37,727 nucleotides of DNA from the IMG/VR virus record IMGVR_UViG_3300021405_000004, positions 1 to 37,727 of that record; one strand, 5' to 3'. The notes beneath the pieces were generated by a model. The model was not told the origin of the DNA, made no database searches, and was given only the letters and a program-made list of their open reading frames with translations. Origin of the DNA: a virus. Every line of letters begins with the position of its first letter. Position 1 is the stretch's first letter. A program made the translations under genes and the position numbers. Below, in pieces: positions 2,036 to 37,727 of this stretch.

Positions 2036-2264
2036 GGATGCGCCTGACGGAAAGGCAACAACAGATGGTCGGTTGGGTTGGTACTACAGACCGGATTCTA
2101 CAACAATCGCGCGATATACGGTTGCGATTGATGAATCTATATTAGGTAGTCGCGAGAAATTGATATGTTGTAACGTGGTTCAATTACACATCCCTTTCAT
2201 CGCCATAATGCGCGACGGACGCGCGAAAGTTGACGCAATACCAGATACAGCGGTGCTTCAATAA
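2028..2264 (+). CDS. Doubtful small ORF with TTG start
   Basis: A 78-codon frame opens with TTG inside the end of the HNH gene and runs to TAA at 2262-2264. It has no internal ATG until very late and no recognisable domain. A shorter ATG-initiated frame (2038-2145) overlaps it in another register, and probably at most one of the two is translated. Codon use is not unlike the neighbours, so I keep it at low confidence. Confidence 0.3.
   Translation: MNRDAPDGKATTDGRLGWYYRPDSTTIARYTVAIDESILGSREKLICCNVVQLHIPFIAIMRDGRAKVDAIPDTAVLQ
2038..2145 (+). CDS. Candidate 35-aa small protein (alternative to 2028-2264)
   Basis: An ATG two bases after the HNH stop opens a 35-aa frame ending in TAG. The peptide starts MRLTERQQQMVGW and is rich in Arg, Gln and Leu, as expected for one amphipathic helix. 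The ATG and the tight spacing to the HNH gene favour it over the TTG frame. It is too short to assign. From its end to 2356 there are about 210 bases with no convincing gene. Confidence 0.3.
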   Translation: MRLTERQQQMVGWVGTTDRILQQSRDIRLRLMNLY

Positions 2265-2356
2265 CGCCTTCTGGCTTAAACAGTGAGACTTGACGTGAGT
2301 AATAAACTTTGAGAAGCTCGGTTCAATTCCGGCTATGGCGACTAAAATAAAAAACA

Positions 2357-3196: not shown

Positions 3197-3203
3197 ACAG
3201 AAT

Positions 3204-3407
3204 ATGAAAAAGAAGATAAAATCTAAAGAAATAGAAGATGGTCATGGATATGCTATTCATGGTCTTGATACAGCAACTACCCCAAGAGATAAGGTAAAGG
3301 CTATTGAGCAACATATATGTTTCCTCGATGATAGGAACAATGAGGTTATAAGTACTCTTAGGAGAATGATAGATGAAATTGACCCCCAATTTCTATATAG
3401 AAAATAA
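3204..3407 (+). CDS. Small hypothetical protein, helical
   Basis: This 67-aa protein begins MKKKIKSKEIEDGHGY and ends in a predicted helix with paired acidic and basic residues (ISTLRRMIDEIDPQFLYRK). I use ATG 3204, seven bases after the preceding stop. An in-frame ATG at 3177 would overlap the upstream gene by 20 bases and add only nine residues. It shares the AT-rich composition of its neighbours and resembles the short unassigned proteins common in Bacteroidetes phages. Confidence 0.6.
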   Translation: MKKKIKSKEIEDGHGYAIHGLDTATTPRDKVKAIEQHICFLDDRNNEVISTLRRMIDEIDPQFLYRK

Positions 3408-3425
3408 CTAACTAACAACTGAATT

Positions 3426-3797
3426 ATGTATACAGAAAAACAAATGCGCGAGTACGGCGACAAATGCTGGAAGGATGGTAATAATGGCAAGGTTTCAATT
3501 ATACCTCTCCCTTCACCCCTTACCCCCGAAGAAGTAGAGAAGGAAGCGGTTGAGGTATTAATGACAAATGGACATAGAAGCGACAAGTTTTATTTAGAAT
3601 TTGTTGAAAATTCGATTCATTTACTTGCATCCAGAGGCTTACTTGCCTCACATAAACAGGTAAGCATTGATAGGGAGAAAACTATTGAAATTCTTCAAAA
3701 AGAATGGCATAGAAAAGGCACTAAATCATACAATGAAATATGGAATAATATGTATGATGCCCTAATAGAATCATTAACCGATAAAACAAAAGCATGA
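3426..3797 (+). CDS. Hypothetical protein of the early/accessory block
   Basis: The product is 123 aa. An N-terminal segment (MYTEKQMREYGDKCWKDG) is followed by a Pro-rich linker (PLPSPLTPEE) and a helical C-terminal half. The start follows an A-rich leader (aactaacaactgaattATG). It overlaps the next gene as ATGA. I recognise no catalytic motif. The N-terminus plus linker resembles small phage proteins of unknown role, and no function is assigned. Confidence 0.7.
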   Translation: MYTEKQMREYGDKCWKDGNNGKVSIIPLPSPLTPEEVEKEAVEVLMTNGHRSDKFYLEFVENSIHLLASRGLLASHKQVSIDREKTIEILQKEWHRKGTKSYNEIWNNMYDALIESLTDKTKA

Positions 3798-4159
3798 ACA
3801 GAAACCAGAGAGCCTTAAACTACATTCGCAGCAAGAACTTATTGAGGCGCGGCGAACCAATAACAACCTCCTCAAAAGTCAGTATACAATACATATCGTC
3901 CGAAGGCGACGACAATGTTATGGAGCAGTGCGCAACCAACGCAATACAGAACGCCGAACGACTTGCGAAGCGATTCCGAATACACTACAACTACATAATA
4001 ACGCACATTGATACCGGGTTTGACAATCAAGACCTAGAGAAAGGCCTCATGACATTCAAGTTTGTCTTGTCGCCTATTATAAAACCGAAACCCAAGAAGA
4101 AACGGTTCAGAAGAATTCAATTATCAGGCAATGAAATGTATTTCATGGAAGCATATTAA
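3794..4159 (+). CDS. Hypothetical basic protein
   Basis: The product is 121 aa and basic, with Arg/Lys clusters at both ends (MNRNQRALNYIRSKNLLRRG and a KPKPKKKRFRRI stretch near residue 100), so it may bind nucleic acid (inference). It is translationally coupled to the previous gene by ATGA. Its base composition returns to the genome norm, marking the right edge of the AT-rich cassette. A gap of 53 bases with a promoter-like motif follows. Confidence 0.7.
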   Translation: MNRNQRALNYIRSKNLLRRGEPITTSSKVSIQYISSEGDDNVMEQCATNAIQNAERLAKRFRIHYNYIITHIDTGFDNQDLEKGLMTFKFVLSPIIKPKPKKKRFRRIQLSGNEMYFMEAY

Positions 4160-4187
4160 ACGGATTACCTAAAACAAATACTTTGTA

Positions 4188-4200
4188 TCTATCTTAGCGG
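4188..4200 (+). promoter_or_regulatory. Candidate phage promoter, shared motif TCTATCTTAGCGG
   Basis: The motif lies 12 bases before the holin ATG in a 53-base gap. A near-identical TCTATTTTAGCGG lies at the same kind of position before the gene at 31560. The core TATCTTAG (4190-4197) resembles the Bacteroidetes -7 element TAnnTTTG. No clear -33 TTTG is seen at the usual distance. It could be read by host RNA polymerase or respond to a phage factor. Confidence 0.45.
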
Positions 4201-4212
4201 AAATTTCATTTC

Positions 4213-4686
4213 ATGAGCATTATATCAGACATTGTCAAAGGCGGCGCAAGCGGAATTTTCGCCGGAGCTTCCGAAGTCCTCAAGGACATCATACCAGACC
4301 CAACAGCACGGGCGGCGGCTCAGGAGAAGCTTCAAGAGCTTGCGTTGACTAATTCGGCTCACACAGCGGACTTGGCCGAACAACAATTAGAAGCCCAGTT
4401 GAAGGATGTACAGTCAGCCAGAGATATGGAAGTTGCGGCCTTGAAACAAAACAGCTGGTTCGCCAAGAACGTTATTCACCTATTGGCAGCAGCGGTAACG
4501 GTAGGCTTCTTCGGATTGTTAGGCTACATGTGTAAATACGATGTACCAGCCGCCAACAAAGACATGTTAAACATAATGCTTGGCTCATTAGGAACAGCAT
4601 GGATTTCAATAGTAGGATTTTACTATGGAAGTTCAAAGAGCGATTCCGACAAGAACGAAACAATTAAAAACTTATCAAGTAACTAA
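4213..4686 (+). CDS. Holin of the 3-TM (GTA-type) family
   Basis: The product is 157 aa. An N-terminal segment with Gly/Ala-rich SDIVKGGASGIFAGASEVLK is followed by an acidic, Gln-rich coiled-coil region (about residues 30-85) and two clear hydrophobic helices (about 90-112 and 120-138), ending GSSKSDSDKNETIKNLSSN. This order, with an amphipathic first segment, a coiled coil, WFAKN and two TM helices, matches the holin family of gene transfer agents and many siphoviruses. It would permeabilise the inner membrane for the endolysin at 25657. It lies at the head of the late run, directly behind a promoter-like motif, 20 kb from the endolysin. Confidence 0.75.
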   Translation: MSIISDIVKGGASGIFAGASEVLKDIIPDPTARAAAQEKLQELALTNSAHTADLAEQQLEAQLKDVQSARDMEVAALKQNSWFAKNVIHLLAAAVTVGFFGLLGYMCKYDVPAANKDMLNIMLGSLGTAWISIVGFYYGSSKSDSDKNETIKNLSSN

Positions 4687-4687
4687 C

Positions 4688-4873
4688 ATGACAGCAAAAA
4701 CAGTTGAATTCAAATTCTCTCCGAAGGATAAAGTAAAAGATGCGTTTGGTAACGATGGTATCGTGTACATATGCGCAATAGAAGAAAACAAACAAGAACC
4801 AGTCTATTACGTCAAAAACCAATACGGAGGTAATTGGATAGGCGAAGAAGAACTTTTAGCAGCAGGTTGCTAA
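4688..4873 (+). CDS. Small SH3-like hypothetical protein
   Basis: The 61-aa product, starting at ATG 4688 one base after the holin stop, looks like a small SH3/KOW-type beta barrel: FSPKDKVKDAFGNDGIVYIC, then a strand pair around YYVKNQYGGNWIGEEEL. Similar short barrels are common in phages, and often no function is known. The in-frame start at 4625 would sit deep in the holin gene and is not used. Confidence 0.6.
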   Translation: MTAKTVEFKFSPKDKVKDAFGNDGIVYICAIEENKQEPVYYVKNQYGGNWIGEEELLAAGC

Positions 4874-4884
4874 TCATTATTAAC

Positions 4885-4980
4885 ATGGCCGTTCGTCGTA
4901 ATCGAAGGACGCCAGCCACGGAAGTGCGTCTGGAAATTGGGAGAGGGTTAAAAGCGGCTCTCAACGGCCTTCCTTATTAA
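4885..4980 (+). CDS. Candidate 31-aa basic protein
   Basis: An ATG after tcattattaac opens 31 codons ending in TAA at 4978-4980, ten bases before the next gene. The peptide begins MAVRRNRRTPATEVRLEIG and is strongly basic at its N-terminus. Fit and spacing favour a real small gene. The same bases also fold well (see 4887-4969), so it could instead be, or also be, an RNA element. Confidence 0.45.
   Translation: MAVRRNRRTPATEVRLEIGRGLKAALNGLPY
4887..4969 (+). other. Three-armed RNA fold overlapping the small ORF
   Basis: GGCCGTT (4887-4893) is the exact complement of AACGGCC (4963-4969). Inside are TTCG/CGAA, GACG/CGTC with an inner CAC-GGAA-GTG hairpin, and GAGAG/CTCTC. The 83-nt shape recalls a cloverleaf, but there is no T-loop and no anticodon arm, so it is not a tRNA. 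Confidence 0.35.
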
Positions 4981-4990
4981 ACTAAACAAC

Positions 4991-5194
4991 ATGGAACTAT
5001 TGAATTACATTTTAGTCGGAGCTGCTTGTATGGCAGCCGGAATAGGAATAGGCTATAAGCTATTGACCGGGCATTTGAAAGAATCAATGCACGAAGTAAC
5101 CGAAGACCTAACAGCCGGAGAAACTATCACGGAAGACGAGATGGTCAAACTGAAAGCATCGCTACACAACCAGATAGAAAAATACTTTGAATAA
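4991..5194 (+). CDS. Small single-TM protein
   Basis: The product is 67 aa with one N-terminal TM helix (about residues 5-26, LNYILVGAACMAAGIGIGYK) followed by an acidic amphipathic helix (ITEDEMVKLKASLHNQIEKY). The predicted form is a membrane anchor with a cytoplasmic or periplasmic helix, similar in plan to small phage lysis-accessory or spanin-like proteins, though there is no lipobox. It sits between the holin and the packaging genes and overlaps the next gene as TAATG. Confidence 0.65.
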   Translation: MELLNYILVGAACMAAGIGIGYKLLTGHLKESMHEVTEDLTAGETITEDEMVKLKASLHNQIEKYFE

Positions 5195-5448
5195 TGATGC
5201 CTGTAGAGTTCCCGGAACAAAACGTTGTATTTACTAAACCGAAGGAAATGACCGACGAACAATGCGGTCAGCTTCCTGTTCACATAGGTAAAGACGAAGA
5301 AGGCAACCGGGTAATGATATCGTGCTGGAAGTTCAGCAAAGAAGACCTTGAAACAATAGCCAAAACAGGTACGATATACTTGAACATAACAGCTCAAAAT
5401 ATGCCGCCAGTGTCGTTGTTCACCGAAAACCCTTTTGTTCATGAGTAA
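5194..5448 (+). CDS. Small hypothetical soluble protein
   Basis: The product is 84 aa and soluble, with alternating beta and helix: VEFPEQNVVFTKPKEMTDEQ, GQLPVHIGKDEEGNRVMISC, then FSKEDLETIAKTGTIYLNIT. Proteins of this form precede the terminase in several Bacteroidetes phages; I know no function. The start overlaps the previous stop (TAATG), with a second ATG directly after the first. Confidence 0.65.
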   Translation: MMPVEFPEQNVVFTKPKEMTDEQCGQLPVHIGKDEEGNRVMISCWKFSKEDLETIAKTGTIYLNITAQNMPPVSLFTENPFVHE

Positions 5449-5545
5449 CAACATAGGATACAACAACACTCCCATAGAGCCGTCGTTAACGCCGTTGATT
5501 GTTATTGTATTGGCTATCATAACCCTTTTAATAGCATTCAGGTAA
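5441..5545 (+). CDS. 34-aa single-TM protein
   Basis: This gene is too short for most gene finders. ATG 5441 lies within the end of the previous gene and the frame ends TAA 5543-5545, directly against the terminase ATG at 5546. The peptide has a polar Asn-rich head (MSNNIGYNNTPIEP) and one hydrophobic helix (LTPLIVIVLAIITLLIAF). Exact abutment to terS and a clean TM helix support translation. The role is unknown. Confidence 0.6.
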   Translation: MSNNIGYNNTPIEPSLTPLIVIVLAIITLLIAFR

Positions 5546-12549: not shown

Positions 12550-13779
12550 GTGAAATTATCCATATTGATATGTTCTGTAGAAACTAGGTTTGAAATGATA
12601 GCCCAGTTGATGCAGATTTTAGCACCACAAGCATCCGGGAAGCCCGTTGAAATACTATGGTTGGGAGACAATCGGGTAATGAGCGTAGGTGAGAAGCGAA
12701 ACAAGCTCATGTCCCTAGCTAAAGGAGAACACATATGTTTTGTAGATGATGATGATAGGGTTGCGGATAATTATGTTGATGAGATTCTTACGGCCTTGGA
12801 AAAGAATCCTGACGTGGTTTGTTTTGAAAGCCAGTATCACAATGCTGAGACTGATAGAACTGACCGTGTATATATGGCTTCGATATTTCACATAGAGAAC
12901 GACGAAAAGAATCACATCCGCAAGCGTTGTCCTAATCACCTCAGCGTCATTCGCAAGTCGATAGCCGAAAAGATAGGTTTTAAAGAACTATCGTTCAGCG
13001 AAGACACCGACTTCTCGTTGCGATTAAAGAACAGCTACCTGTTGAAGAAAGAGGTTGTTATAAACAAAATACTTTACTTCTATGACTATTGCGAAGCTAC
13101 TTCCGAGACAGCCAAGTTTGGACCAAAGGCCGTAAAGCCTAAATCAGAACCAATGGTGAAGATGGACGTTGTTATAGTAAGCGACGGAACGAAGCCGGAG
13201 TTAATGAAGATGACTCAGGACGCGGTTCAATCAATTCATAGCGACGAAGTAAACGTTGTTGTAATAGAGAAGGGCGAACAGATTAGATACGCTAACGCGG
13301 ACACTTACCTTCAACGCAAACCGTTCAACTACAATAGATGTCTCAACGAAGGAGCGCATATGGGTAACGCCTCGCTGATATGCTTCAGCAACAATGACGT
13401 TATATTCCCGGCTGGATTCGTACATCATGTAACTAACTTATTCAAAGCTCACGACATAGACGTTATGAGCTTTACAAACCAACACGGATTCCTTCATGAT
13501 AAAATCATAAGCGGATTCTGTTTTGTAATGACACGCGCCGCGTTTATGAAAATAAACGAACTCGATACAGCGTATGAGTTTTGGTGCGCCGACAACGTAA
13601 CTACTGAGCAAATTAAAAAGTGGGGGTTAAAAGAACTTAAAACACCCATACGTGTAACCCACATATGCTCACAATCCCTGAATAGGCTCGATAAATATAC
13701 ACACGAACAATACACAAGAGATTGCGTAAAGAGATTCAACAAGGACTTCAAACAGAACGTTTTAAACCTAGGCGAATGA
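12550..13779 (+). CDS. Tandem family-2-like (GT-A) glycosyltransferase
   Basis: The 409-aa product has two GT-A-like halves. The first opens KLSILICSVETRFEM and has an acidic metal-binding run FVDDDDRVADNY (DDDD at 66-69) with a later SFSEDTDFSLRL acceptor-type box (about 148-158). The second starts near residue 204 (MDVVIVSDGTKPEL) with SNNDVIFPAGF (NND 281-283) in place of DxD. It should transfer a sugar from a nucleotide donor in the host cytoplasm. It starts at GTG directly after the capsid terminator and overlaps the next gene as ATGA. Lying inside the head module, it most likely decorates virion protein; glycosylation of modified bases is the alternative. Confidence 0.75.
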   Translation: MKLSILICSVETRFEMIAQLMQILAPQASGKPVEILWLGDNRVMSVGEKRNKLMSLAKGEHICFVDDDDRVADNYVDEILTALEKNPDVVCFESQYHNAETDRTDRVYMASIFHIENDEKNHIRKRCPNHLSVIRKSIAEKIGFKELSFSEDTDFSLRLKNSYLLKKEVVINKILYFYDYCEATSETAKFGPKAVKPKSEPMVKMDVVIVSDGTKPELMKMTQDAVQSIHSDEVNVVVIEKGEQIRYANADTYLQRKPFNYNRCLNEGAHMGNASLICFSNNDVIFPAGFVHHVTNLFKAHDIDVMSFTNQHGFLHDKIISGFCFVMTRAAFMKINELDTAYEFWCADNVTTEQIKKWGLKELKTPIRVTHICSQSLNRLDKYTHEQYTRDCVKRFNKDFKQNVLNLGE

Positions 13780-16235: not shown

Positions 16236-16664
16236 ATGGCAAAAATTAATGGAACGAATCTAGTTGTGCTTGTTGATACAGGCACAGGAGGCCCAGAAGA
16301 AACTTCATTCTCAACTGATTGCAAAATATCTATTGACATGGGCACGGCTAACGCTACCACAAAGGATAGCGGCGGATGGGATGAGATAATTCCAACCAAC
16401 GGCAAATGGAGTGTTGATTGTAACGGCCTAGTTGACTTTCACCCGTCTTCCGGCGTTCACAACATCGCTGACTTGTACGCTGCTTTGGCGGCTAAGACAG
16501 CAGTAACGGTTTACTTCCAATTAGCTACACAAGTTACTGGTGACCAAAGCTGGTGGGGTGTTGCGTACATAACCAAGCTTGAACAGAACGCGAAAGACAA
16601 GGATGTAGTTAGCTACACTGCGACTTTTGAAGGCACTGGCGCGCTTACTAAAGTAACTCACTAA
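16236..16664 (+). CDS. Major tail tube protein
   Basis: The 142-aa product has the TP901-1-like tube fold: MAKINGTNLVVLVDTGTG, ETSFSTDCKISIDMGTANAT, SGGWDEIIPTNGKWSVDCNG, and a final strand VVSYTATFEGTGALTKVTH. It polymerises into the tail tube around the tape measure. It lies between tail terminator and tail chaperones, as expected. Its start has an A-rich leader (tctaaaacacaATG) with no Shine-Dalgarno sequence even though it should be highly expressed, which supports a Bacteroidetes host. Confidence 0.9.
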   Translation: MAKINGTNLVVLVDTGTGGPEETSFSTDCKISIDMGTANATTKDSGGWDEIIPTNGKWSVDCNGLVDFHPSSGVHNIADLYAALAAKTAVTVYFQLATQVTGDQSWWGVAYITKLEQNAKDKDVVSYTATFEGTGALTKVTH

Positions 16665-17017
16665 TGAGGCTGACTGAAGTTAATCTGGGAGGGCAATCGC
16701 GCCCTTTCAGATTCGGCTTTAACGCCATAGAGGTTTACTGCAACAAGACAAACACGCCTTTACATGAGTTTGGAAGCGTTGCGTCAAAGTTGGTTTCAGA
16801 CAAGGCCGCGATAGGAATATTGCGAGACTTTGTTTGGGCTGGGCTTTGCGGAGGTTGTATGAGTAAAGGGCTTACTATCGACTTCACTAACTTCCAAGTC
16901 GGAGACTGGATGGACGAATGCGATGGAGATACAATTACAAACCTCATCGACACAATGGTTGAGTCTATGTACACTACCGAAAAAAAAAAGGTAACGGACA
17001 GCCAGACAAACCAATAA
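16664..17017 (+). CDS. Tail assembly chaperone, short form (gpG-like)
   Basis: The 117-aa zero-frame product (MRLTEVNLGGQSRPFRFGFN...) has the plan of phage tail chaperones: an N-terminal beta segment, a helical bundle around LVSDKAAIGILRDFVWAGLC, and an acidic end DWMDECDGDTITNLIDTMVE. It would coat the tape measure before tube assembly. A run of ten A near its 3' end allows a -1 shift to give the long form annotated at 16664-17352. It overlaps the tube gene by one base. Confidence 0.85.
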   Translation: MRLTEVNLGGQSRPFRFGFNAIEVYCNKTNTPLHEFGSVASKLVSDKAAIGILRDFVWAGLCGGCMSKGLTIDFTNFQVGDWMDECDGDTITNLIDTMVESMYTTEKKKVTDSQTNQ

Positions 17018-17352
17018 CGTTTGACGCGCTTATAACACAGAGCGCAAGAGCTGGATTGAGCCCGGCTGAATTTTGGGGGTTGACTTTACGTGAATGGGTT
17101 CTGTATATGGAAGGATATCACTTGAGGCTTGATGACGAATGGAGACAAACAAGGATGTTATATTCAATAATATTTAACACAAACTCGTCAAAGCAAATGA
17201 CGGCGCAAGAGCTCATCCCGTTAGACAGCGACCGACAAGAAGTTGTTGAACAGGCAAAAGAAGTTGGATTGGACTACAAACTTGGTGTTGCTTCTAAATA
17301 CAGAGACATTATGAAGACAGGGACGCATACAAAAGTTATAGGAAATGGATGA
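16664..17352 (+). CDS. Tail assembly chaperone, long frameshift form (gpGT-like)
   Basis: A -1 frameshift at AAAAAAG (16984-16990) joins the gpG-like protein to a second frame that is open from the A-run to TGA 17350-17352. The fusion is about 109 + 120 residues. The second part contains GLSPAEFWGLTLREWVLYME, typical of gpT-like domains (phage tail chaperones that contact tape measure and tube). No good independent ATG begins the second frame, which supports the fusion. The stop overlaps the tape-measure start by eight bases. Confidence 0.85.
16980..16990 (+). other. Programmed -1 ribosomal frameshift site (A10-G)
   Basis: Ten A (16980-16989) followed by G place A-AAA-AAG in the zero frame of the tail chaperone gene, the heptamer known to promote -1 slippage. 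The downstream frame is open at once. I see no strong downstream pseudoknot by eye. Confidence 0.85.
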
Positions 17353-19318
17353 AAGTTTGAAAGCCAAATTCGGCCTAGATGAATCTGAATTTTCGGAAGG
17401 CATACGCAGATTAACCGCAGCTGTTGGCGACTTGTCAGGCAAGATGCAAGAGTTCGGCGAAAGAGCTAACTCAGGATTCAAACACGGACAGGAGGGCGCG
17501 AATGACTTTCAGGGCGCAATGGACAATCTTCAAGACAAAATAATTGAAGTTTTTGCGGTTGAAAAAATTATAGACTTTGGAAAGGATTGCGTTGAAGCCG
17601 CAACAAAAGCCGACACCGCTTTCAGACACCTTCAATTCTCTACAGAAAAGATAGGCGGAGCGTCCCCGGCTGTATTCAAGTCTCTGATACAATGGACTGA
17701 CGCGTACGCCGAATCATTGAAGATGCTTTACAGCCCAACAGAGCTTCAATCAGCAGAAGCGCAACTTGCTACATTTGGACTAACAACAACTCAGATAAAA
17801 AGTTTGTTGCCGCAAATTGTAGACTTGGCGCAAGGGCTAGGGATAGACCTAACGTCAGCAACAAGCATGGCCACGCAAGCTATAATGGGCCACGGAAGGG
17901 CGTTGATAAGCGCAGGAATACATATACAGGACACAGGAAGCAAAACAAAAAACTTGGCGGAGCTTCAACAAAAACTAAGCAAGTTCACTGGAGAGGCCGC
18001 AAGCCAGCTCGATTCTTTTGCTAATAAGGCCAAAGAAGCCGACAACAACGCCGAAGAAATGGAGAAAACTATTGGCGAAGGATTGACGCCAATATGGCAA
18101 GGATTCAGGGACAAGGTTCTTGAAGCTACAAAAGGTATATTGGAATTCTTCAGCGTTGCGGCAGAGAACAAAAGCGAGCTATCTGTGTATGCTAAAAGGA
18201 GCACCGAATCATTAAACCTTCTTGCAGCGTCCAACGATGGGGCGATGATTTCAATGATAAAGGCCGGAAAAACAACCGACGAATACGGACGAAAACTTGA
18301 AGACCTTGAGAACGCAAACAAGAATATAAACCAAGTACTAAAGGAACGTCAAGAAATAGACAAGGCCTCAAAACAACCTTCCACCGAAAAGGACTTCAAG
18401 GCGCAGGGTGCTGACGCAACAAAAGAGAACGAGCCTAAAAACCCTGCAGACCACATAAAGGACGCTACCGAAATAATAAACGAAGGCGCTCAGGCGTATA
18501 CGATATTTGGTAAAACAGCCGACCAAGTTTACAAACAAGAACAGGCCGCAATCGAGGAATCAATGAAGAAGCTTATCGACAAAGGCGAGTTGACCGACAA
18601 GGAGAAATCGCAATACGATGAGTTAAAAGCAAATCTTGCCGGAGTTAAGGACGCTCAGAAACAACTAACCGACCAAGAAGAAGCCGAAAAGTATAACAAC
18701 GAAATATTTATAAAACAATACAATGATAGGGTTAAAGCGGACATCGACGCGTACGAAGCTCAAATTGAGGCGGCGAAAAAAGCGTCTGAAGAAAAACTAA
18801 GAATTGCGGAGAGTGAAGCGAGGACTGTAGCTCAAATAACTACAAGAGGCGCAGAAGAGGTCGGCAGCATCATAGCGGACGCGGCTAATAGTAAAGGAAA
18901 TAAAGACGTAGCCAAGAAGCTATTCGGCGACATGGCGAAGCTTGTAGGTGAGGCCGCGAAGAAGATGGGTGAAAAATTAATAGCCCTTGGAGCAGTAGCC
19001 AATGTTGCGTTGCCCGGTAGCGGAACAAGCGAGATGGTAGGCGGAGCTGGGATGGTTGTTGCGGGAACTGCTTTGAGCGCAATACAGTTCGCTTCCGGCG
19101 GTATCGTATCTGGGTCAACATTCGCTAACATAGGCGAGTACGCCGGAGCGAGCCACAACCCCGAAGTTGTTGCGCCGTTAGACAAGCTAAAGGGCATGAT
19201 TGGAGATACCGGGGGCGGTGGCGGATATAGGTTTGAAATAGCAGGCGATAAGCTTTTAGGAATACAAGACAGGATTCAAAATAATAATCAATTCGTTATG
19301 GGAACTAACAACCAATGA
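17345..19318 (+). CDS. Tape measure protein
   Basis: The 657-aa product sets tail length. It begins SLKAKFGLDESEFSEGIRRL, the usual beta-hairpin start of tape measures, continues as a long helical/coiled-coil protein rich in Ala, Lys, Glu and Gln (about 230-520), then has an Ala/Gly hydrophobic segment (about 545-585) and ends with SGGIVSGSTFANIGEYAGAS...EVVAPLDKLKGMI, a C-terminal block common to many tape measures. At the usual 0.15 nm per residue it predicts a tail near 100 nm (inference). There is no peptidase or lysozyme domain that I can see. Confidence 0.92.
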   Translation: MDESLKAKFGLDESEFSEGIRRLTAAVGDLSGKMQEFGERANSGFKHGQEGANDFQGAMDNLQDKIIEVFAVEKIIDFGKDCVEAATKADTAFRHLQFSTEKIGGASPAVFKSLIQWTDAYAESLKMLYSPTELQSAEAQLATFGLTTTQIKSLLPQIVDLAQGLGIDLTSATSMATQAIMGHGRALISAGIHIQDTGSKTKNLAELQQKLSKFTGEAASQLDSFANKAKEADNNAEEMEKTIGEGLTPIWQGFRDKVLEATKGILEFFSVAAENKSELSVYAKRSTESLNLLAASNDGAMISMIKAGKTTDEYGRKLEDLENANKNINQVLKERQEIDKASKQPSTEKDFKAQGADATKENEPKNPADHIKDATEIINEGAQAYTIFGKTADQVYKQEQAAIEESMKKLIDKGELTDKEKSQYDELKANLAGVKDAQKQLTDQEEAEKYNNEIFIKQYNDRVKADIDAYEAQIEAAKKASEEKLRIAESEARTVAQITTRGAEEVGSIIADAANSKGNKDVAKKLFGDMAKLVGEAAKKMGEKLIALGAVANVALPGSGTSEMVGGAGMVVAGTALSAIQFASGGIVSGSTFANIGEYAGASHNPEVVAPLDKLKGMIGDTGGGGGYRFEIAGDKLLGIQDRIQNNNQFVMGTNNQ

Positions 19319-27214: not shown

Positions 27215-27492
27215 GAAAAGACGAAAGAGACAAAATCATAAAATTGATAGCCGATGAAATTTCTAACCAAAACTATCTCATGGACGACCACGGCGGAGAA
27301 AAGGAAGACTTTATTGAATCAGCCACAAAAACAGCAACAGCGTTGGTTGTTAAGATAAATTTTATAATAAAGTCTAACCAAGTAAACATAGAAGCCCTAG
27401 AGAAGGCTCGTGACGCTATGTCAACAAACTTCTTGAAAGGACACAACGCGTACGATGAAGTTGTTAATGCTTTAAACTTAAACAAATCATGA
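27211..27492 (+). CDS. Hypothetical helical protein
   Basis: The product is 93 aa and almost entirely helical with mixed charge (MRKDERDKIIKLIADEISNQ, then ESATKTATALVVKINFIIKS and IEALEKARDAMSTNFLKG). I start it at ATG 27211, coupled to the TM peptide gene. Small helical proteins of this type are common in phages of this group, mostly without known function. It overlaps the GGCT gene as ATGA, so it is the first gene of the amidoligase cluster. Confidence 0.6.
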   Translation: MRKDERDKIIKLIADEISNQNYLMDDHGGEKEDFIESATKTATALVVKINFIIKSNQVNIEALEKARDAMSTNFLKGHNAYDEVVNALNLNKS

Positions 27493-27899
27493 AACATTTA
27501 TTATTTACTTACGGAACGCTTCAAACAGACATGAGAAACAACAAGCCGTTTATGGATGGACAGCGGCTTATTTGTAAGGCTTTGTGCGAAGGAGAGTTAT
27601 TCAACGTAAACAGACCGCAATACCCCGTGCTCATAGAAGGCAAGGAGCTTATACGTGGAGAGCTTTGGGAAATAGACGATGTTTCATTGAAACGAATAGA
27701 CCGTCTTGAAACGTACAATCCCGAAACCCCCGAACAAAACAACTATACTAGGGAGGTTTGCGATGTAATTACTAAGAACGGAAAGGTAATGGCGTTTGTT
27801 TATAAATACAAACGCGTAGTAATGGAAGGCCCAAATTATACAAAGATAAAACACGGAGACTACAAACTATACCTAAAACAAAATGAAGCATTACGATAA
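27489..27899 (+). CDS. Gamma-glutamylcyclotransferase-like protein (GGCT / AIG2 fold)
   Basis: The 136-aa product has the GGCT fold signature: FTYGTLQ at 6-12 (substrate-binding YGxL loop), GELFNV and GELWEID (57-63), then the catalytic-acid box LKRIDRLETY with Glu74, and a final YKYKR strand. Family members cyclise and release gamma-glutamyl groups as 5-oxoproline or transfer them. It lies directly before an amidoligase and a class-II glutamine amidotransferase, a grouping described for phage and bacterial peptide or amide synthesis clusters. It likely trims or recycles a glutamyl adduct made by them (inference). Confidence 0.85.
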   Translation: MKHLLFTYGTLQTDMRNNKPFMDGQRLICKALCEGELFNVNRPQYPVLIEGKELIRGELWEIDDVSLKRIDRLETYNPETPEQNNYTREVCDVITKNGKVMAFVYKYKRVVMEGPNYTKIKHGDYKLYLKQNEALR

Positions 27900-27987
27900 A
27901 CCAATCAAGCAACTCAGCCGGATAGCCGCGTTTGCGGTTAACCCGATAGCGTTAGTAATCATACTAATCTTTAAAATCAACCCATAA
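27883..27987 (+). CDS. 34-aa single-TM protein within the amidoligase cluster
   Basis: ATG 27883 lies 17 bases inside the GGCT gene and the frame ends TAA 27985-27987, sharing its last base with the amidoligase ATG. The basic head (MKHYDKPIKQLSRI) and helix IAAFAVNPIALVIILIFKI form a membrane peptide. Overlap with both neighbours supports translation. The role is unknown; it could simply couple translation of the two enzymes. Confidence 0.5.
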   Translation: MKHYDKPIKQLSRIAAFAVNPIALVIILIFKINP

Positions 27988-29141
27988 TGGAAACAAATAA
28001 TTGCATAACTTGCGACCAGCTCATTGCGAATCGCTTCTTCAATCTAGTTCCGGATGGAGCTGTTTGCGATGATTGTTTCGACAGGCTTTATCAGAAGTGT
28101 TTGAGCTGTAACGAGCCGGAGTTAGTCGGAAGGCCACACGTAATAATGATTGATGGACAAACACAAGAAGTTTGTAGAAAATGTTTTGAACGAAACTTCG
28201 TAACATGCAGCGAATGTCATTCGATATGTCGAAAAGATAATTCCTTTGCCGTAGATAGCGCAAGGAGAATATGCAGAACTTGCAACGACAAGCGACCGTC
28301 CTGCGTTCAATGTTCAAGACGAGGCTTATCAACTATTACAACCCACATAGGTGCGTGTTGTACGTCTTGCGCAGACAAGCTATACATACAATCTTACTCA
28401 ACCAAACCAACGCCGTTGTTCTTCGGTTACGAAGACCTTCACTTTGGAATAGAACTTGAGGTTGAGATGCCGGGCGGCGTACGTTATCCGATTCTTCACG
28501 AGGTTAATCAGCCTTGGTTATACTTCAAATCAGACAGCTCGATAGGGCACGGCGTTGAGATAGTAACGCACCCGTTGTCGTTTGAATGGATAAAGGAGAA
28601 CGAGAAGACAATAACAAAGTTTCTGGGAATCCTGCGACACCGGGGTTGCAGAGGCTTTGAATCGGCTAACTGCGGAATGCACGTTCACATAACGAAGAAA
28701 GGAATGAACTCGTTACACATACTGAAGTTCATGCAGCTTATGTACTTGAATCCGTTGTTTACACTGCTTGTAAGCCAACGAGAGCGAGACAAGCTGAATC
28801 TTTACGCATCCATGGAGGATTCGTCAAAGCACAAGCTGTATAGAGAAGCTACAAGCAAGTTCAACGAAGGTTCGCGAAACCAAGCCGTCAATCTCACCGA
28901 CCATACGGCGGAGGTAAGGATATTCAAATCAAACATCCGCCCGGCTTCGTTCTTCAAGAACATAGAGTATTGTCACTCTATGTACGTCTATTCAAAACAA
29001 TGCTCTTTAAAAGACGCTACGCTGGAAAAATACATTGAGTTCGTTACCGCGAACTTCAAGACCTATCCCAACCTTGCGGCCTTCCTTATAGAGAACTCAA
29101 AGAAAATTAACGAAATAAAAAAACAAGCCATATGTGCATAA
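27987..29141 (+). CDS. Amidoligase (Amidoligase_2 family) with N-terminal zinc-ribbon array
   Basis: The 384-aa product has two parts. Residues 6-130 contain at least eight CxxC-type pairs (CITC, CDDC, CLSC, CRKC, CSEC, CRTC, CVQC, CTSC), a chain of small zinc knuckles that could bind nucleic acid or protein. From about 150 comes the glutamine-synthetase-like COOH-NH2 ligase: FGIELEVE (153-160), DSSIGHGVEIVTHP (183-196), the hallmark CGMHVHI (229-235) and AEVRIF (308-313), which hold the metal and ATP ligands. It should join a carboxyl group to an amine using ATP. GGCT and GATase-II neighbours suggest glutamine-derived ammonia or glutamyl chemistry; the acceptor may be the modified base (inference). 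Confidence 0.88.
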   Translation: METNNCITCDQLIANRFFNLVPDGAVCDDCFDRLYQKCLSCNEPELVGRPHVIMIDGQTQEVCRKCFERNFVTCSECHSICRKDNSFAVDSARRICRTCNDKRPSCVQCSRRGLSTITTHIGACCTSCADKLYIQSYSTKPTPLFFGYEDLHFGIELEVEMPGGVRYPILHEVNQPWLYFKSDSSIGHGVEIVTHPLSFEWIKENEKTITKFLGILRHRGCRGFESANCGMHVHITKKGMNSLHILKFMQLMYLNPLFTLLVSQRERDKLNLYASMEDSSKHKLYREATSKFNEGSRNQAVNLTDHTAEVRIFKSNIRPASFFKNIEYCHSMYVYSKQCSLKDATLEKYIEFVTANFKTYPNLAAFLIENSKKINEIKKQAICA

Positions 29142-30274
29142 TCATTGTTAATAAAGTCGGGACGATTCCTTACGAACAGCTAGAAGAATCTTGGAGCCGA
29201 AACGACCACGGAGCCGGACTGGCTTATGTAGATAACGGCGTGTTGTTAGTCTACAAGACTATGGTAAAGGAGGAGTTTATACATATGTATAAGTCTTTGA
29301 AGGAATCGGGCGTTGGCTTGGTTATTCTTCACTTCCGAATCCGAACTCACGGCCTAACCGATGTCAGCAACGTTCACCCATTCGCGGTCAACGAAAGGCT
29401 AGTGTTGTTTCATAACGGAACTATCCGAATGGATTACGACAAGGACGATACGCCCTTTGAACTAACATCTCAACAGTGGAAGGATATGAGCGACACAGCG
29501 CAGTTCGCTGTATTTCTTCGGTACAACTTCCCTATCAACTTCACGCGTAGCAAAAAGAATCTTAACGTGGTTAGGAAGCTTATAGCTGGATACAACAAGC
29601 TAGTTTTCTTGAATCATAATAACGAAGTTACGTTTGTTAATGAACATCTTGGGCATTGGTTTGAAGGTAACTGGTATAGCAACGAAAGTTACAAGCCGCG
29701 CCCGGTAGTTGTTTATGAAGCGCAGCCTTACGAGCGTAACTTGGGGCGCGCTTACTACGATGAAGATGTTGTTTCGTATGCTGAAATAAAAGATACATTC
29801 CCGAAAGGAATCGACGTAATCACATACGATGAAGTGAATGAATGTTTTACGGTAGGCGACTTTAAAAAGCTTCTTGTCTCCAAGGGGCTTTCAAAGAAGA
29901 AGGCCGGCAAATTAGCCAAACAAGCTATCGCTGACCCAGATTGTTTATTCAACGGCAACCTAGCTATAAAGGTTAAGGAGAACTTGAAGAAGGCCGTAAA
30001 GCCTATTCAAACAACACTAGCTCTTATCCCGGAACTATTAGAAACACGCAAGATGAATCCAGCCGGGTTGGTAGTAATGGACAGAGTTGAAACAGTCTAC
30101 GGGAAGGGCAGCATTGTAGCGATAGCCTTTCACAAGCCGGACGATGTAGTAATAGGCCATTGGAAGTATCGGTTCAGGCCTGACGTTCAGCCTAGCGAAC
30201 TGCTTGGGCGCGTCTTCTTCTTGGACGGAACGCTTGTATTGTATGATGATGATAAAATAACTAAACTAACTTAA
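29132..30274 (+). CDS. Class-II glutamine amidotransferase-like protein (Ntn hydrolase)
   Basis: The 380-aa product starts MCIIIV, so Cys2 becomes the N-terminal nucleophile after Met removal. Further GATase-II features are SRNDHGAGLAYV (22-33), HFRIRTHG (67-74, with the substrate-binding Arg) and HNGTI (94-98). It would release ammonia from glutamine and pass it to a synthetase, most simply the amidoligase encoded directly upstream (10-base overlap). Residues 200-380 form a second, unrecognised domain with a DVITYDEVNECFTVGDFKKL strand-helix and a beta-rich end; a role in substrate delivery is possible. No synthetase domain is fused. Confidence 0.85.
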   Translation: MCIIIVNKVGTIPYEQLEESWSRNDHGAGLAYVDNGVLLVYKTMVKEEFIHMYKSLKESGVGLVILHFRIRTHGLTDVSNVHPFAVNERLVLFHNGTIRMDYDKDDTPFELTSQQWKDMSDTAQFAVFLRYNFPINFTRSKKNLNVVRKLIAGYNKLVFLNHNNEVTFVNEHLGHWFEGNWYSNESYKPRPVVVYEAQPYERNLGRAYYDEDVVSYAEIKDTFPKGIDVITYDEVNECFTVGDFKKLLVSKGLSKKKAGKLAKQAIADPDCLFNGNLAIKVKENLKKAVKPIQTTLALIPELLETRKMNPAGLVVMDRVETVYGKGSIVAIAFHKPDDVVIGHWKYRFRPDVQPSELLGRVFFLDGTLVLYDDDKITKLT

Positions 30275-30276
30275 TC

Positions 30277-31470
30277 ATGAGAACGATTGACTATTTTTTA
30301 AGAGAGGGCGGTGATGTAGCCGAATACATATCAGATAACGATGTTTCAAACATTGGCGAGTTTATAAAACATTGCTGGAATCCGAATCATCTTTATGAAT
30401 TCATGTATCAGCTTTGTTGTTACGAAGAACACACGTTCAACAAAGAGTCCATAGACAAGATAGCAAAGGAAATTATGTTTTGTTACGTACAGCATTCAGG
30501 TTGGAATAAAGCCGAAGAAGCGTACAATGCATATCTTACAGGCTCATTAGCGTCTTGGACAGCAATAAATTACCCATCAGAATCAGAAAACGAACACTAT
30601 CAAGTGCCTCAATGCGTTAGCGCTGTATTGAGCAATAGTACTACCTCGGAAAGCCTTAACTTTTTAAGAGAGGCTTGCAGCCGCCTCGAACAACTATACA
30701 GCGACAACATAAACAACTTCGTTTTCGGTTTAATAAAACGCGAGTTTTTTGGAGTTCCTTTTGTTATTGACGACTTCGATAGGTTGTTTGTAATTAAGAA
30801 AGAGGACGCAAAAAACCTTGCGCCGTTGTCGTCGTTTGTTAGGCGAAAACATTTGGCGAAGCGCGAAAAAAACGTGGCCTTTACGTTGACTACAAAATTC
30901 TACTCATTCGAGGCTTTCGACGGCGTTAAGTACTATTGCGCCGAAGGAGATGTTGAACAAACGCAAAAGAAAAGTATGGGTATTAACAAGTACGCTACTG
31001 ATAGGATTGCGACTCAAACCGAAGACATACAAGTTATCCGGTTTGGCTCAGGGCTTCTGTTTAACGACATGCTTGTAATAGCTAGAGAAGTTCCTACCTT
31101 TTCAAACGAGATACCCGAAAAGAACGCCAAGCCCGTTAACGGAAGCGTGTTGAAGATAGAAGCGACTACAGACCGCGTTTGCGTAAGGGCGGCCAATCAA
31201 GAACTTTCAGTTATGCCATACCGCGCGACTATCTTTGAACAAATTGACACGGAAAAAAAAGCCGACTTCAAACACGAAGACGTTATACTTGTATTCAACA
31301 CCAAGCGATTGAAGGACGTTCTTGCGTTTATTCCCGATGATAAAGTTCGCGTAAGATTGAACGAGCGTTTGACTATCCGGGATAAGAAGCGAACCATTGT
31401 ATTGTTTCCTTGTTATCAGAGGCCTATGAGTACAAACCAGATAAACACGCAAGCATTTTCATTCGCTTAA
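30277..31470 (+). CDS. Hypothetical protein, possible sliding-clamp-like C-terminus
   Basis: The product is 397 aa and starts two bases after the GATase gene, so it belongs to the same transcript. Residues 1-170 are helical with several Cys/Trp. The C-terminal third reads like a DNA clamp: KIEATTDRVCVRAANQELSV (about 290-309), then FNTKRLKDVLAFIPDDKVRV (about 342-361), RLTIRDKKRTIVLFPCYQRP near 367-386, where bacterial beta clamps have Y-L-x-D-x-L...V-M-P-M-R. The match is by eye and weak. If right, it could tether the modification enzymes to replicating DNA. Otherwise function is unknown. Confidence 0.6.
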   Translation: MRTIDYFLREGGDVAEYISDNDVSNIGEFIKHCWNPNHLYEFMYQLCCYEEHTFNKESIDKIAKEIMFCYVQHSGWNKAEEAYNAYLTGSLASWTAINYPSESENEHYQVPQCVSAVLSNSTTSESLNFLREACSRLEQLYSDNINNFVFGLIKREFFGVPFVIDDFDRLFVIKKEDAKNLAPLSSFVRRKHLAKREKNVAFTLTTKFYSFEAFDGVKYYCAEGDVEQTQKKSMGINKYATDRIATQTEDIQVIRFGSGLLFNDMLVIAREVPTFSNEIPEKNAKPVNGSVLKIEATTDRVCVRAANQELSVMPYRATIFEQIDTEKKADFKHEDVILVFNTKRLKDVLAFIPDDKVRVRLNERLTIRDKKRTIVLFPCYQRPMSTNQINTQAFSFA

Positions 31471-34350: not shown

Positions 34351-34714
34351 ATCCAATCTAATAGCGATTAAGACCGAGCTTGAGCGCGAAGTCTCCGCTG
34401 ATTCAATTATGGACGTAACTGATAAGCTTATGAAGCTACAAGTGTACGACGCATTGAGCGCGGAGACTATGCGCTGGGCTAGGAAGCTAGTGTTGGATGA
34501 ACAGAGAAAGGAGATGGCCAAGCTGGACATTCTAAAGACACAGACAACGGTATTGAAGATGCTTGTTGAAAGCAACTTGTCAGAATGGCTTGCGCTGTAT
34601 ACCTACGCGGAGCGTTTGAACGCGGCTGTTCATCACGGGTGCGATGCCTTGCGCACCATAGTAAGTTTGTACAAGGAGCAAATGGTAACAGAAAGATTTA
34701 CAAGACAAACATGA
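34331..34714 (+). CDS. Hypothetical helical protein
   Basis: The product is 127 aa, helical throughout, with a leucine-rich start (NREQIESNLIAIKTELEREV) and helix EQRKEMAKLDILKTQTTVLK. No catalytic motif is seen. It overlaps the next gene as ATGA. In the operon it lies between the nuclease and the TET/JBP gene, so a role in DNA metabolism is possible but not shown. Confidence 0.6.
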   Translation: MNREQIESNLIAIKTELEREVSADSIMDVTDKLMKLQVYDALSAETMRWARKLVLDEQRKEMAKLDILKTQTTVLKMLVESNLSEWLALYTYAERLNAAVHHGCDALRTIVSLYKEQMVTERFTRQT

Positions 34715-35001
34715 CAGTATTAACGGGCGACTTGTTCGCCGGAGAATGGACGGCTGACGAAAGTCCAATCGAGGACGCGGCTATCAAGCAAAAGCTTTTG
34801 TATTACTCCGAAGAAGAACATCAGGAGTTCAACAGGCTTGCTAAGATAGGTATGAGGATAATGTGGCCGAGCGATTTGGACGAAGCAAACCAAAGTGATT
34901 TAATTTTAAACTTGTTACGCGAGAAGTATGGAAACATTGAAGCTAAAGAATCATCTAACGCCGGAGAAAGCCGAGGCGTTGAAGGGAACGTATCTGAATG
35001 A
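34711..35001 (+). CDS. Small hypothetical acidic protein
   Basis: The product is 96 aa, acidic (MTVLTGDLFAGEWTADESPI, then EEEHQEFNRLAKIGMRIMWP). I use ATG 34711, overlapping the previous stop as ATGA; a much longer upstream extension of this frame would lie wholly inside the previous gene. Its last 74 bases overlap the start of the TET/JBP gene. Function is unknown. Confidence 0.55.
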   Translation: MTVLTGDLFAGEWTADESPIEDAAIKQKLLYYSEEEHQEFNRLAKIGMRIMWPSDLDEANQSDLILNLLREKYGNIEAKESSNAGESRGVEGNVSE

Positions 35002-35797
35002 GTACAGCTATGACCGCGTAATAAAAACAGACGTTGATGCATACGACCTTCACGGGAATCTGTTATTGAAGTTCAGGAAAGGGGCATTGAACTACGACGT
35101 GCTGAAGACCGGGTATGAATCCTTCAAAGACAGTATTGATATTAGCAACCTCCGGGGCTTCGCCTCCGGGAGCGTTCATAAGAGAGTACGAAAGGACGGA
35201 AGCCAGACCAACACGACCGTAGGCAACCCCGTAACCAGCGGCAACGTAGGTTATATGGACGCCAACGCGTTAGTTAGATATTGTCGTAAGACCGCTTTTG
35301 CGCAAAAGTATTTCGACAAATTCAAGGCCGGCATCCCCTTCATTCAGGAGGTGGACAGGCTGTTCAAAGAACTATGTCCAAATCATTACGCCCGGCAGAT
35401 AGCCGTAGCGAAGGCGACTAATAGAAACTATGTGATTGACGGAACATCGTTCACGACCGTAACTGTTAACAAAAACTTCCGTACTGCCGTTCACCAAGAC
35501 GCAGGAGACTACCGGGAGGGAATGGGAAACATTTGCGTGTACCGGGAAGGTGACTGGACAGGAGGTTTATTTATACTCCCGGAGTATCGCGTTGCGATAG
35601 ACCTTCAAAACACAGACATGTTGTTTTGCGACGTTCATAAGTTCCACGGCAACTCAGAGTTCATAGGCATGAAAGAAAATGACCTGCGAATCTCTTTTGT
35701 TATGTATTACAGGGAATATATGTATCAATGCAAACAACCGTCTGTCGAGCTAAAGAAAGCTAAGATTGACCAGACAGGTTACAGAAGAACACTATGA
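34928..35797 (+). CDS. TET/JBP-family 2-oxoglutarate/Fe(II) dioxygenase
   Basis: The 289-aa product has the double-stranded beta-helix core of TET/JBP enzymes, which hydroxylate the 5-methyl group of thymine or 5-methylcytosine in DNA. The iron site is H189-Q-D191 (in FRTAVHQDAGDY), with the distal His in DVHKFHGN (H237 or H240) and the 2-oxoglutarate Arg in LRISFVMYYRE (R254 or R262). FTTVTVNKNF before the HxD is characteristic of the family. Residues 1-130 form an N-terminal region I do not recognise. It is coupled by ATGA to the hmU kinase-like gene, and no C5-cytosine methyltransferase is present, so thymine is the likelier substrate (inference). Confidence 0.85.
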   Translation: METLKLKNHLTPEKAEALKGTYLNEYSYDRVIKTDVDAYDLHGNLLLKFRKGALNYDVLKTGYESFKDSIDISNLRGFASGSVHKRVRKDGSQTNTTVGNPVTSGNVGYMDANALVRYCRKTAFAQKYFDKFKAGIPFIQEVDRLFKELCPNHYARQIAVAKATNRNYVIDGTSFTTVTVNKNFRTAVHQDAGDYREGMGNICVYREGDWTGGLFILPEYRVAIDLQNTDMLFCDVHKFHGNSEFIGMKENDLRISFVMYYREYMYQCKQPSVELKKAKIDQTGYRRTL

Positions 35798-36345
35798 AGA
35801 CGATACTAATGTACGGCTTGCCGGGAAGCGGCAAGACAACGGTAATGTTAAAACTCATGTCCATGTTTGATGGTTGGGAGCGCATTACTACTCCATTCGT
35901 TCATTACCGAAGACCGGGTATGAACGTGTTTGGAGATTACGAGCCTAACGCTGACAAACCATTTTTAGGAACAGACCGATTGAGTATGGCTGTTCAGCCG
36001 GATGCGATAAAGTTTATCAATCACAACGACAATGTTGGTTTTACGAACTTCATAGAAGGCAGCCGCCTTTTTACGAGTTCTTTCATAAACGAAGTAAAAC
36101 CGAAGTTAGTTGTTTTGCGTTGTAATAAATTGCTTATCGAATCACGGTTCAAGGAAAGGGGCAGCCAGCAATCTGAAAAGTGGTTAGCGTCATGCGAAAC
36201 TCGCTTAAACAACATAATTGAATCTAGAGACTATCACGAACTTCAAAACAACGATGTCTGGGATATAGAAAAATGCGCAAAGCAAATTACCTATATCGCT
36301 AACGGAGATGAGTTGTATTTGAAACACAAACAAACGCTGTTCTAA
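35794..36345 (+). CDS. 5-Hydroxymethyluracil DNA kinase-like P-loop protein
   Basis: The 183-aa P-loop kinase has Walker A GLPGSGKT (8-15). The segment FGDYEPNADKPFLGTDRLSM AVQPDA (about 47-72) matches the G-x-Y...F-x-GTD-x-LSM-x-VQP pattern of the HMUDK family, phage enzymes that phosphorylate 5-hydroxymethyluracil in DNA. SRLFTSSFI and VVLRCNKLLIESRFKERG supply the lid. It starts within the TET/JBP stop, the order expected if it activates that enzyme's product for the aGPT-Pplase-like protein. It is small but complete. Similarity to other nucleotide kinases is possible, but the FLGTDRLSM box is specific. Confidence 0.82.
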   Translation: MKTILMYGLPGSGKTTVMLKLMSMFDGWERITTPFVHYRRPGMNVFGDYEPNADKPFLGTDRLSMAVQPDAIKFINHNDNVGFTNFIEGSRLFTSSFINEVKPKLVVLRCNKLLIESRFKERGSQQSEKWLASCETRLNNIIESRDYHELQNNDVWDIEKCAKQITYIANGDELYLKHKQTLF

Positions 36346-36989
36346 TGGCTACAGGAAAAGGCTCGTTTTTGATGTACGCCGATTACCTCGGCTTGTTCGA
36401 GCAACTCTCAGACGAAGAAGCCGGAAAGCTAATCAAACACGTTTTGAATTATGTTAACGATTCCAAACCGCAAACAGACGACAAAACGATATTGGTAGCG
36501 TTCGCGCTTATCAAGTCTAACTTGAAAAGGGATTTGAAGAGTTGGGAAGAAACGAGAAGTGAGAGAAGCAAGGCCGGGAAGGCAAGCGCAGAGAAGCGAC
36601 GCAAGGACAGAGAATCAAAGTCAACAAATGTTAACATAAGTCAACAAGTTCAACAAGTGTCAACAAATCCAACTGTTAATGTTAATGTTAATGTTAATGT
36701 TAAAAACATATATATACCTACCATTGAAGAATGTATTTCATTTTTCGAGTTAAAAGAATTTTCCGCCGACCTAGCTAAACAAGCTTGGGAAGGTTACGAC
36801 GCAAACAAGTTTGAAATTAAACCGGGCGTGTGGGCGTGGAAGGATAGTCAGGGAAAACTAATAAAGAACTGGAAAATGAAGATGATTCAAGTTTGGATGA
36901 AACCAGAAAACAAACATGGAAAAAACAAAGTCAATCGAGCCGACCTCAACTTGGGAAAGGACGAAACAATCAATTATGAGGCTCTTTAA
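36345..36989 (+). CDS. Replication-associated protein, DUF6291-like
   Basis: The product is 214 aa. The N-terminal 75 residues (MATGKGSFLMYADYLGLFEQ LSDEEAGKLIKHVLNYV, then KSWEETRSERSKAGKASAEK) match the DUF6291 type of phage replication proteins, often DnaD-like. Residues 95-122 are low-complexity (NVNVNVNVNVK), encoded by direct repeats that look like an origin. The C-terminal part (ECISFFELKEFSADLAKQAW) is a helical DNA-binding-type domain common to such initiators. The gene abuts the kinase as TAATG. It likely opens the phage origin for host replication proteins (inference). Confidence 0.75.
   Translation: MATGKGSFLMYADYLGLFEQLSDEEAGKLIKHVLNYVNDSKPQTDDKTILVAFALIKSNLKRDLKSWEETRSERSKAGKASAEKRRKDRESKSTNVNISQQVQQVSTNPTVNVNVNVNVKNIYIPTIEECISFFELKEFSADLAKQAWEGYDANKFEIKPGVWAWKDSQGKLIKNWKMKMIQVWMKPENKHGKNKVNRADLNLGKDETINYEAL
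36621..36703 (+). repeat. Iteron-like repeats in the initiator gene; candidate replication origin
   Basis: TCAACAA occurs at 36621, 36641, 36650 and 36660 (spacing 20, 9 and 10), followed by five perfect TGTTAA units (36674-36703) and an AT-rich AAAACATATATATACC tract. Iterons next to an AT-rich unwinding region within an initiator gene are the layout of lambdoid origins. Confidence 0.6.
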
Positions 36990-37698
36990 CAGAGCCGAAC
37001 AACAGATTGTAATAAGCCGGAGCGAGAAACAAATACAGGCATACAACCAATATGATTTCATAAACCTAACAAAACAGTTGCGCCTCATAGCGGTTTCTCA
37101 CTTCGCCATCCGCGAAGAAATACCCGACATGGTTATGGCGGTAACTGTTAGAATGTTGAAGAATCATTATTCAGGTTTTAACACAGCCGACATTGTTAAT
37201 GCTATGGAAGCTTGCGCCGCAGGTAAATACAAAACCTCAGACGGGAAAATAATACAGCCTTACGGTTCGTTTTCGGTGGCGTTCGTTGGACAGGTAATGG
37301 ATGAGTACAAAAAGGAAACAGCTCGAATCATAACCAAGCTTCACGAAGAAAACAGAAAACAAAACCCAGAGGACTGGAAAAGCGTAACGGGACAAAAGCG
37401 TTACCGGGACTTGTTGAAGTTTGTAGATACGTACAACACTATTCCGTTGTACTGGCAGTACGAAGCTGTGTTTGAATGGTGTAAGTCAAACGGATGGATT
37501 GTTATAGAAACAGAGTTGACGTATGAAGAAAAACGCCTTGCGGTTATTCGTTACTTGAAAACAATACATCCCGGCGCGGAGGTACAAACAAAACAACAAT
37601 ACGACAAGGTTAAGTCGGGAAGCTCACGAAGGTGGGCGGATAACCTAAAGAAAATAGTTAATAACCAACAAAACAACAATCAGAAGAATGAACTTTAA
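36916..37698 (+). CDS. Replication-associated protein, second gene
   Basis: The 260-aa protein is helical and basic at its C-terminus (SSRRWADNLKKIVNNQQNNN). Helices around 50-100 (FINLTKQLRLIAVSHFAIRE, ADIVNAMEACAAGKYKTSDG) resemble primosome or helicase-loader proteins of Bacteroidetes phages, but there is no P-loop. ATG 36916 overlaps the upstream gene by 74 bases; an in-frame ATG at 36976 would leave only 14 and may be the real start. The gene crosses the contig join (its end recurs at 1-88) and overlaps the aGPT-Pplase-like gene by 11 bases. Confidence 0.65.
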   Translation: MEKTKSIEPTSTWERTKQSIMRLFNRAEQQIVISRSEKQIQAYNQYDFINLTKQLRLIAVSHFAIREEIPDMVMAVTVRMLKNHYSGFNTADIVNAMEACAAGKYKTSDGKIIQPYGSFSVAFVGQVMDEYKKETARIITKLHEENRKQNPEDWKSVTGQKRYRDLLKFVDTYNTIPLYWQYEAVFEWCKSNGWIVIETELTYEEKRLAVIRYLKTIHPGAEVQTKQQYDKVKSGSSRRWADNLKKIVNNQQNNNQKNEL

Positions 37699-37727
37699 AG
37701 ACTTCAGTACAAAGCTCGTTTTGAGCG
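37611..37727. repeat. Direct terminal repeat, right copy
   Basis: Identical to 1-117. It contains the end of the replication gene and the first 40 bases of the base-modification gene. When the circle is closed one copy is removed. Confidence 0.95.
37688..37727 (+). CDS. 5' fragment of the aGPT-Pplase-like gene (duplicate of 78-117)
   Basis: ATG 37688 and the following codons repeat the start of the gene annotated in full at 78-869; the frame is cut by the contig end. It is not a separate gene. Confidence 0.9.
   Translation, partial: MNFKDFSTKLVLS

Follow-up and report, generated by a model that had tools for sequence, protein, structure and literature searches.

The window analysed here, the whole 37,727-base stretch of viral DNA, encodes a TET/JBP 2-oxoglutarate/Fe(II) dioxygenase, a P-loop DNA kinase and an amino acid:DNA transferase, three protein families shown by sequence, modelled fold and conserved residues, and the best explanation, held with good confidence, is that T is oxidised to 5-hydroxymethyluracil (hmU) inside the DNA, phosphorylated by the kinase and joined to an amino acid by the transferase. 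In the proposed mechanism, the TET/JBP enzyme would hydroxylate the methyl group of T in DNA to give hmU, the kinase would convert hmU to 5-phosphomethyl-uracil, and the transferase would exchange the phosphate for an amino acid (the solved homologue uses glycine), producing an N-aminoacyl-methyl-uracil that may shield the phage genome against host nucleases. The order of the steps was taken from the known chemistry of the three families, with whose biochemistry the originally predicted sequence of oxidation, phosphate and addition agrees; T as the base, an amino acid as the addition and protection as the role are what we infer.

The contig carries a 117-bp direct terminal repeat (copies at 1-117 and 37611-37727), so that the genome is a circle of 37,610 bases with a genuine join between the contig ends. 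Genes for terminase, portal, protease and capsid identify the virus as a tailed phage. A Bacteroidota host is likely, because the nearest terminase matches were phages of Flavobacterium and Phocaeicola; genome-contig scans returned no TET relative, and therefore no host or prophage was identified. Elsewhere in the window, a family 2 glycosyltransferase of 409 aa (12550-13779) lies immediately 3' of the major capsid gene, and a helix-turn-helix-like phage protein (31784-32527) carries a ribosomal protein L7/L12 C-terminal domain (6.4e-17).

All genes of the cassette lie on the plus strand. A small protein of 96 aa (34711-35001), whose start shares an ATGA overlap (34711-34714) with the preceding ORF, overlaps the TET gene (34928-35797, 289 aa), which in turn overlaps the kinase gene (35794-36345, 183 aa) at 35794-35797, and the kinase gene overlaps at 36345 a gene for a DUF6291 replication-type protein (36345-36989, Pfam DUF6291 8.3e-21). 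This is followed by a 260-aa ORF without a Pfam match (36916-37698), and on the closed circle the start codon of the transferase gene (78-869, 263 aa) overlaps the end of that ORF by 11 nt (...AGAATGAACTTTAA...), within the terminal repeat. Read from the sequence, TET, kinase and transferase belong to a single run of translationally coupled genes that spans the join of the circle, with the layout TET-kinase-replication genes-transferase. The original prediction had placed the three ORFs at these positions and had continued the run across the contig join; all three were found there with matches far beyond chance, and the terminal repeat and the closed-circle overlap bear out the continuation. 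The DUF6291 protein, though within the coupled run, is probably not a modification enzyme; its relatives adjoin TET and a glycosyltransferase in two contigs (L049 and L053).

The ORF at 34928-35797 is identified as a TET/JBP dioxygenase by Pfam Tet_JBP (3.9e-25, 88.4 bits vs a cut-off of 34.9, profile positions 14-164 of 164), and it matches PHROG 24024 at 5.7e-88. The iron-site motifs HxD...H...R, previously noticed by eye, correspond to H189/D191, the distal H240 and R254, all invariant in an alignment of 12 phage TETs. A PHROG 6059 label, queuine tRNA-ribosyltransferase, was rejected since Tet_JBP fits far better. The enzyme is predicted to hydroxylate the thymine methyl group in DNA. Within its clade of the TET tree, the modules that follow TET swap repeatedly between glycosyltransferase, kinase plus another transferase clade, and kinase plus ADDT, the clade being otherwise linked mainly to glycosyltransferases. 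Four relatives (L040, L042, L071 and L072; 57-65% identical), a minority of the near relatives, lie near a C5-methyltransferase, and the TET sequence alone therefore leaves the base unfixed.

The gene preceding TET in Nonlabens phage P12024L (P12024L_25, 71 aa) matched the 34711-35001 ORF of the window by phmmer at 8e-13, as well as some 50 further genes that immediately precede TET. This family of 70-96 aa proteins is thus found directly 5' of TET in about 50 loci, irrespective of the downstream module, and may be a TET partner.

In the kinase, the P-loop GLPGSGKT occupies residues 8-15 (nucleotides 35815-35838) and the box FLGTDRLSM residues 57-65 (nucleotides 35962-35988), so that it carries both a P-loop and a (F/T)xGxD(R/K)(L/I) box, two motifs conserved in TET-linked kinases; G59, T60 and D61 are invariant in the 8 kinases of one alignment (A5), and the equivalent box of M6 gp54 is TAGLDRIKT. 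A leave-one-out profile of 47 TET-type kinases matched the window kinase at 2.3e-54, and its AlphaFold model (pLDDT 92) has a nucleoside/nucleotide-kinase fold. Profile and motifs place the product of 35794-36345 among the TET-associated DNA kinases with a P-loop, which agrees with the earlier reading of a P-loop protein with this box; the Walker A motif is invariant in its relatives, and the predicted reaction is phosphorylation of the 5-hydroxymethyl group. Against M6 gp54-type kinases, the match was only 3.7e-4 by direct profile, with a probability of 96.3% with E 1.6e-9 by hhalign, which marks the window kinase as a homologue, but a distant one, of the characterised M6 gp54. Pfam PF18751 (Ploopntkinase3) scored 20 bits on the window kinase, below its cut-off of 27, and gave no match at all on the M6 record; the model thus covers only part of the kinase family. 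A label as terminase small subunit (PHROG 800) was rejected, the same kinase family occurring in TET-transferase cassettes. Neither a single-protein scan of IMG/VR (0 relatives) nor an alignment scan was successful for the kinase.

The transferase at 78-869, expected to be an ADDT-type (aGPT-Pplase-like) protein, scored above the cut-off of Pfam ADDT (PF18724; 1.4e-11, 45 bits vs 26.2). Its closest PDB sequences were 25qc (amino acid:DNA transferase, 2.6e-13) and 8z2m (glycinyltransferase, 9.9e-8), and its AlphaFold model (pLDDT 90) was closest in fold to 8z2n/8z2m (TM 0.73, E 1e-7), which by their PDB titles are PaMx11 gp46/PUGT, a 5-phosphomethyl-dU glycinyltransferase. It is accordingly annotated here as an ADDT/aGPT-Pplase2-type transferase, predicted to swap the 5-phosphomethyl phosphate for an amino acid. 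A single-protein scan of IMG/VR returned no relatives of the transferase, and its IMG/VR relatives were obtained by alignment scan. Its identity to most relatives outside its own clade is only 20-27%, a divergence that would suit a transferase that is inactive or otherwise used, with hmU or phosphomethyl-U as the only product; in vitro, kinase treatment alone raises the restriction resistance of hmU DNA (PMC7653180), and in one contig (L066) TET and kinase are present but the 2.6 kb downstream contain no ADDT. We consider such a truncated pathway very unlikely, since the window transferase keeps all 14 residues that are invariant over 39 transferase sequences, keeps the fold, and is translationally coupled to the TET-kinase run.

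To identify the oxidised base, the source of the hydroxymethyl group was compared across genomes. No C5-methyltransferase was found in the closed window genome with PF00145, which detects even short phage C5-methyltransferases, or on the doubled circle with full and short home-made C5 profiles, and no dUMP hydroxymethylase (thymidylate-synthase-like) was found with PF00303 or, on the doubled circle, with a home-made profile. The comparison covered 25 records with both TET and PF18724 ADDT (the window, phages Kozie, MO526, Tonitrus, Reprobate and CloverMinnie, and 19 IMG/VR contigs), none of which had a thymidylate-synthase-type hydroxymethylase (0/25) or an above-cut-off C5-methyltransferase (0/25); among the 24 besides the window there was a single sub-threshold C5-methyltransferase match (16.3 bits). 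Among ADDT records without TET, 33 of 38 had the hydroxymethylase, and a Tet_JBP search of these 38, run without a positive control, gave no match. The mutual exclusion of TET and hydroxymethylase among ADDT records has a Fisher p of 6e-13 on a survey in which most contigs are fragments and the transferase tree needs only about two switches of state, so that independent events are few. Cr30, which combines TET, an ADDT-family transferase and a thymidylate-synthase match of 372.9 bits (hydroxymethylase-type records score about 45-85), was left out of the 25, its match being taken to be an ordinary thymidylate synthase. Because of this exclusion, TET appears to be an alternative source of hmU, in place of the hydroxymethylase that feeds the known pathways.

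As far as PMC11404850 and PMC12730594, citing Burke et al. 2021, describe it, published phage TET biochemistry is on 5mC, and TET could correspondingly oxidise 5mC made by a host methyltransferase, with kinase and transferase decorating hydroxymethylcytosine (hmC) instead of hmU; TET and kinase do adjoin a C5-methyltransferase in phage Melnitz and in contig L071. This cytosine route is judged unlikely for the window, given that C5-methyltransferase is absent here and from the 24 other TET and PF18724 ADDT records (the one sub-threshold match apart), that the solved ADDT homologue works on 5-phosphomethyl-deoxyuridine, and that the L071 transferase belongs to another clade. T is preferred over 5mC from a host enzyme on comparative genomics, namely the transferase family and the missing methyltransferase. 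In L071 itself, TET, a divergent transferase, kinase and C5-methyltransferase lie in one stretch (1172-5505), likely a cytosine version of the same chemistry.

The original prediction left the addition as an amine or an amino acid; the amino acid is likely and the amine is not retained, because a glycinyltransferase is nearest by fold and no tailoring enzyme was found. In PaMx11, an FAD enzyme trims glycine to aminomethyl after gp46. On the doubled circle of the window, FAD, GNAT, PLP, radical SAM, TET-type glycosyltransferase and ParB profiles were all without a match, and with no FAD homologue the simplest expectation is an amino-acid-thymine left untailored. Further tailoring of the conjugate by an amidoligase, a class-II glutamine amidotransferase and a gamma-glutamyl cyclotransferase at 27489-30274 (Amidoligase_2 4.5e-7; GATase_6 4.5e-5, sub-cut-off; GGACT 4.8e-21) was also considered, a glutamine amidotransferase family being found inside about 20 TET-kinase cassettes, with a profile that weakly matches the window amidotransferase (4.6e-4). 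This extension is quite unlikely: the cluster lies several kb from the cassette, none of the TET loci examined has an equivalent of it, and relatedness is general among class-II amidotransferases. An amidoligase scan returned no relatives.

In the window, the gamma-glutamyl cyclotransferase, Amidoligase_2 protein, class II glutamine amidotransferase and a 397-aa protein follow in a row (27489-31470), possibly a peptide or amide modification cluster. Separately, about 15 loci (L088-L104, L109 and L115; for example L099:763-4615) have the order ParB-TET-class II glutamine amidotransferase-GNAT acetyltransferase-divergent transferase-kinase, their amidotransferase starting MCGVIGF, which suggests that glutamine-derived ammonia and acetylation replace the amino acid and FAD enzyme there.

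Such systems were reportedly predicted by Iyer et al. 2013; the trio is already known and annotated, and the window is a further case with its own layout, in which replication genes lie within the run. In Rhodococcus phage Tonitrus, TET, kinase and ADDT are annotated as a thymidine-hypermodification system (PMC11955845), and the trio occurs in dozens of IMG/VR contigs, most commonly in the order ParB-TET-ADDT-FAD-kinase (tallied by loci, some from one contig). Like the window, actinophages Tonitrus, Kozie and MO526 (both of Microbacterium), Reprobate (Mycobacterium) and CloverMinnie (Gordonia) encode TET/JBP, ADDT (aGPT-Pplase2) and P-loop kinase, and in the five genomes searched, as in the window, these occur with no hydroxymethylase and no C5-methyltransferase. 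Their TETs form a distant clade (18% identical to the window TET), their order is mostly TET-ADDT-kinase, and most have a ParB-like gene and several an FAD enzyme, whereas the window has neither; both genes are frequent, not universal, with cassettes lacking FAD or lacking ParB, and are therefore not defining. The closest transferase (~50%) is that of IMG/VR contig L118 (3300003322_000052), the only tabulated cassette to share the TET-kinase-...-transferase order with the window, which differs in lacking the FAD-dependent oxidoreductase found at 2308-3072 of that contig.

Pseudomonas phages M6 and PaMx11 have, as the window does, a 5hmU DNA kinase (M6 gp54) and an amino acid:DNA transferase (M6 gp51, PaMx11 gp46), but M6 obtains hmU from a dUMP hydroxymethylase (gp58) and tailors with PLP and radical SAM enzymes, none of which was found in the window. 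The phage C5-methyltransferase/TET cytosine hypermodification system, as far as it is described in PMC12730594 from Burke et al. 2021, shares the TET family with the window, which is without C5-methyltransferase and TET-type glycosyltransferase. Nonlabens phage P12024L has a TET 59% identical to that of the window and the same small upstream protein, with a TET-associated glycosyltransferase (PF20691) where the window has kinase and transferase. Its complete genome (L002), with TET and this glycosyltransferase at 16409-18037, has no C5-methyltransferase, and may be a case of base-J-like glycosylated hmU in a phage.

We are fairly confident that such phage TETs would be thymine oxidases producing hmU in DNA, a second entry to thymine hypermodification in place of dUMP hydroxymethylase, that a common TET core would be combined in turn with glycosyltransferase or kinase-transferase modules, and that the product in the window would be an untailored amino-acid-thymine. 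JBP oxidises thymine in trypanosomes, and a compact three-gene cassette without C5-methyltransferase or hydroxymethylase is well suited to testing cleanly whether a phage TET can oxidise thymine. If phage TETs do so, such enzymes would provide a way of converting ordinary T in DNA into a base that bears an amino acid, and would explain how DNA is protected in small phages without a nucleotide-pool pathway.
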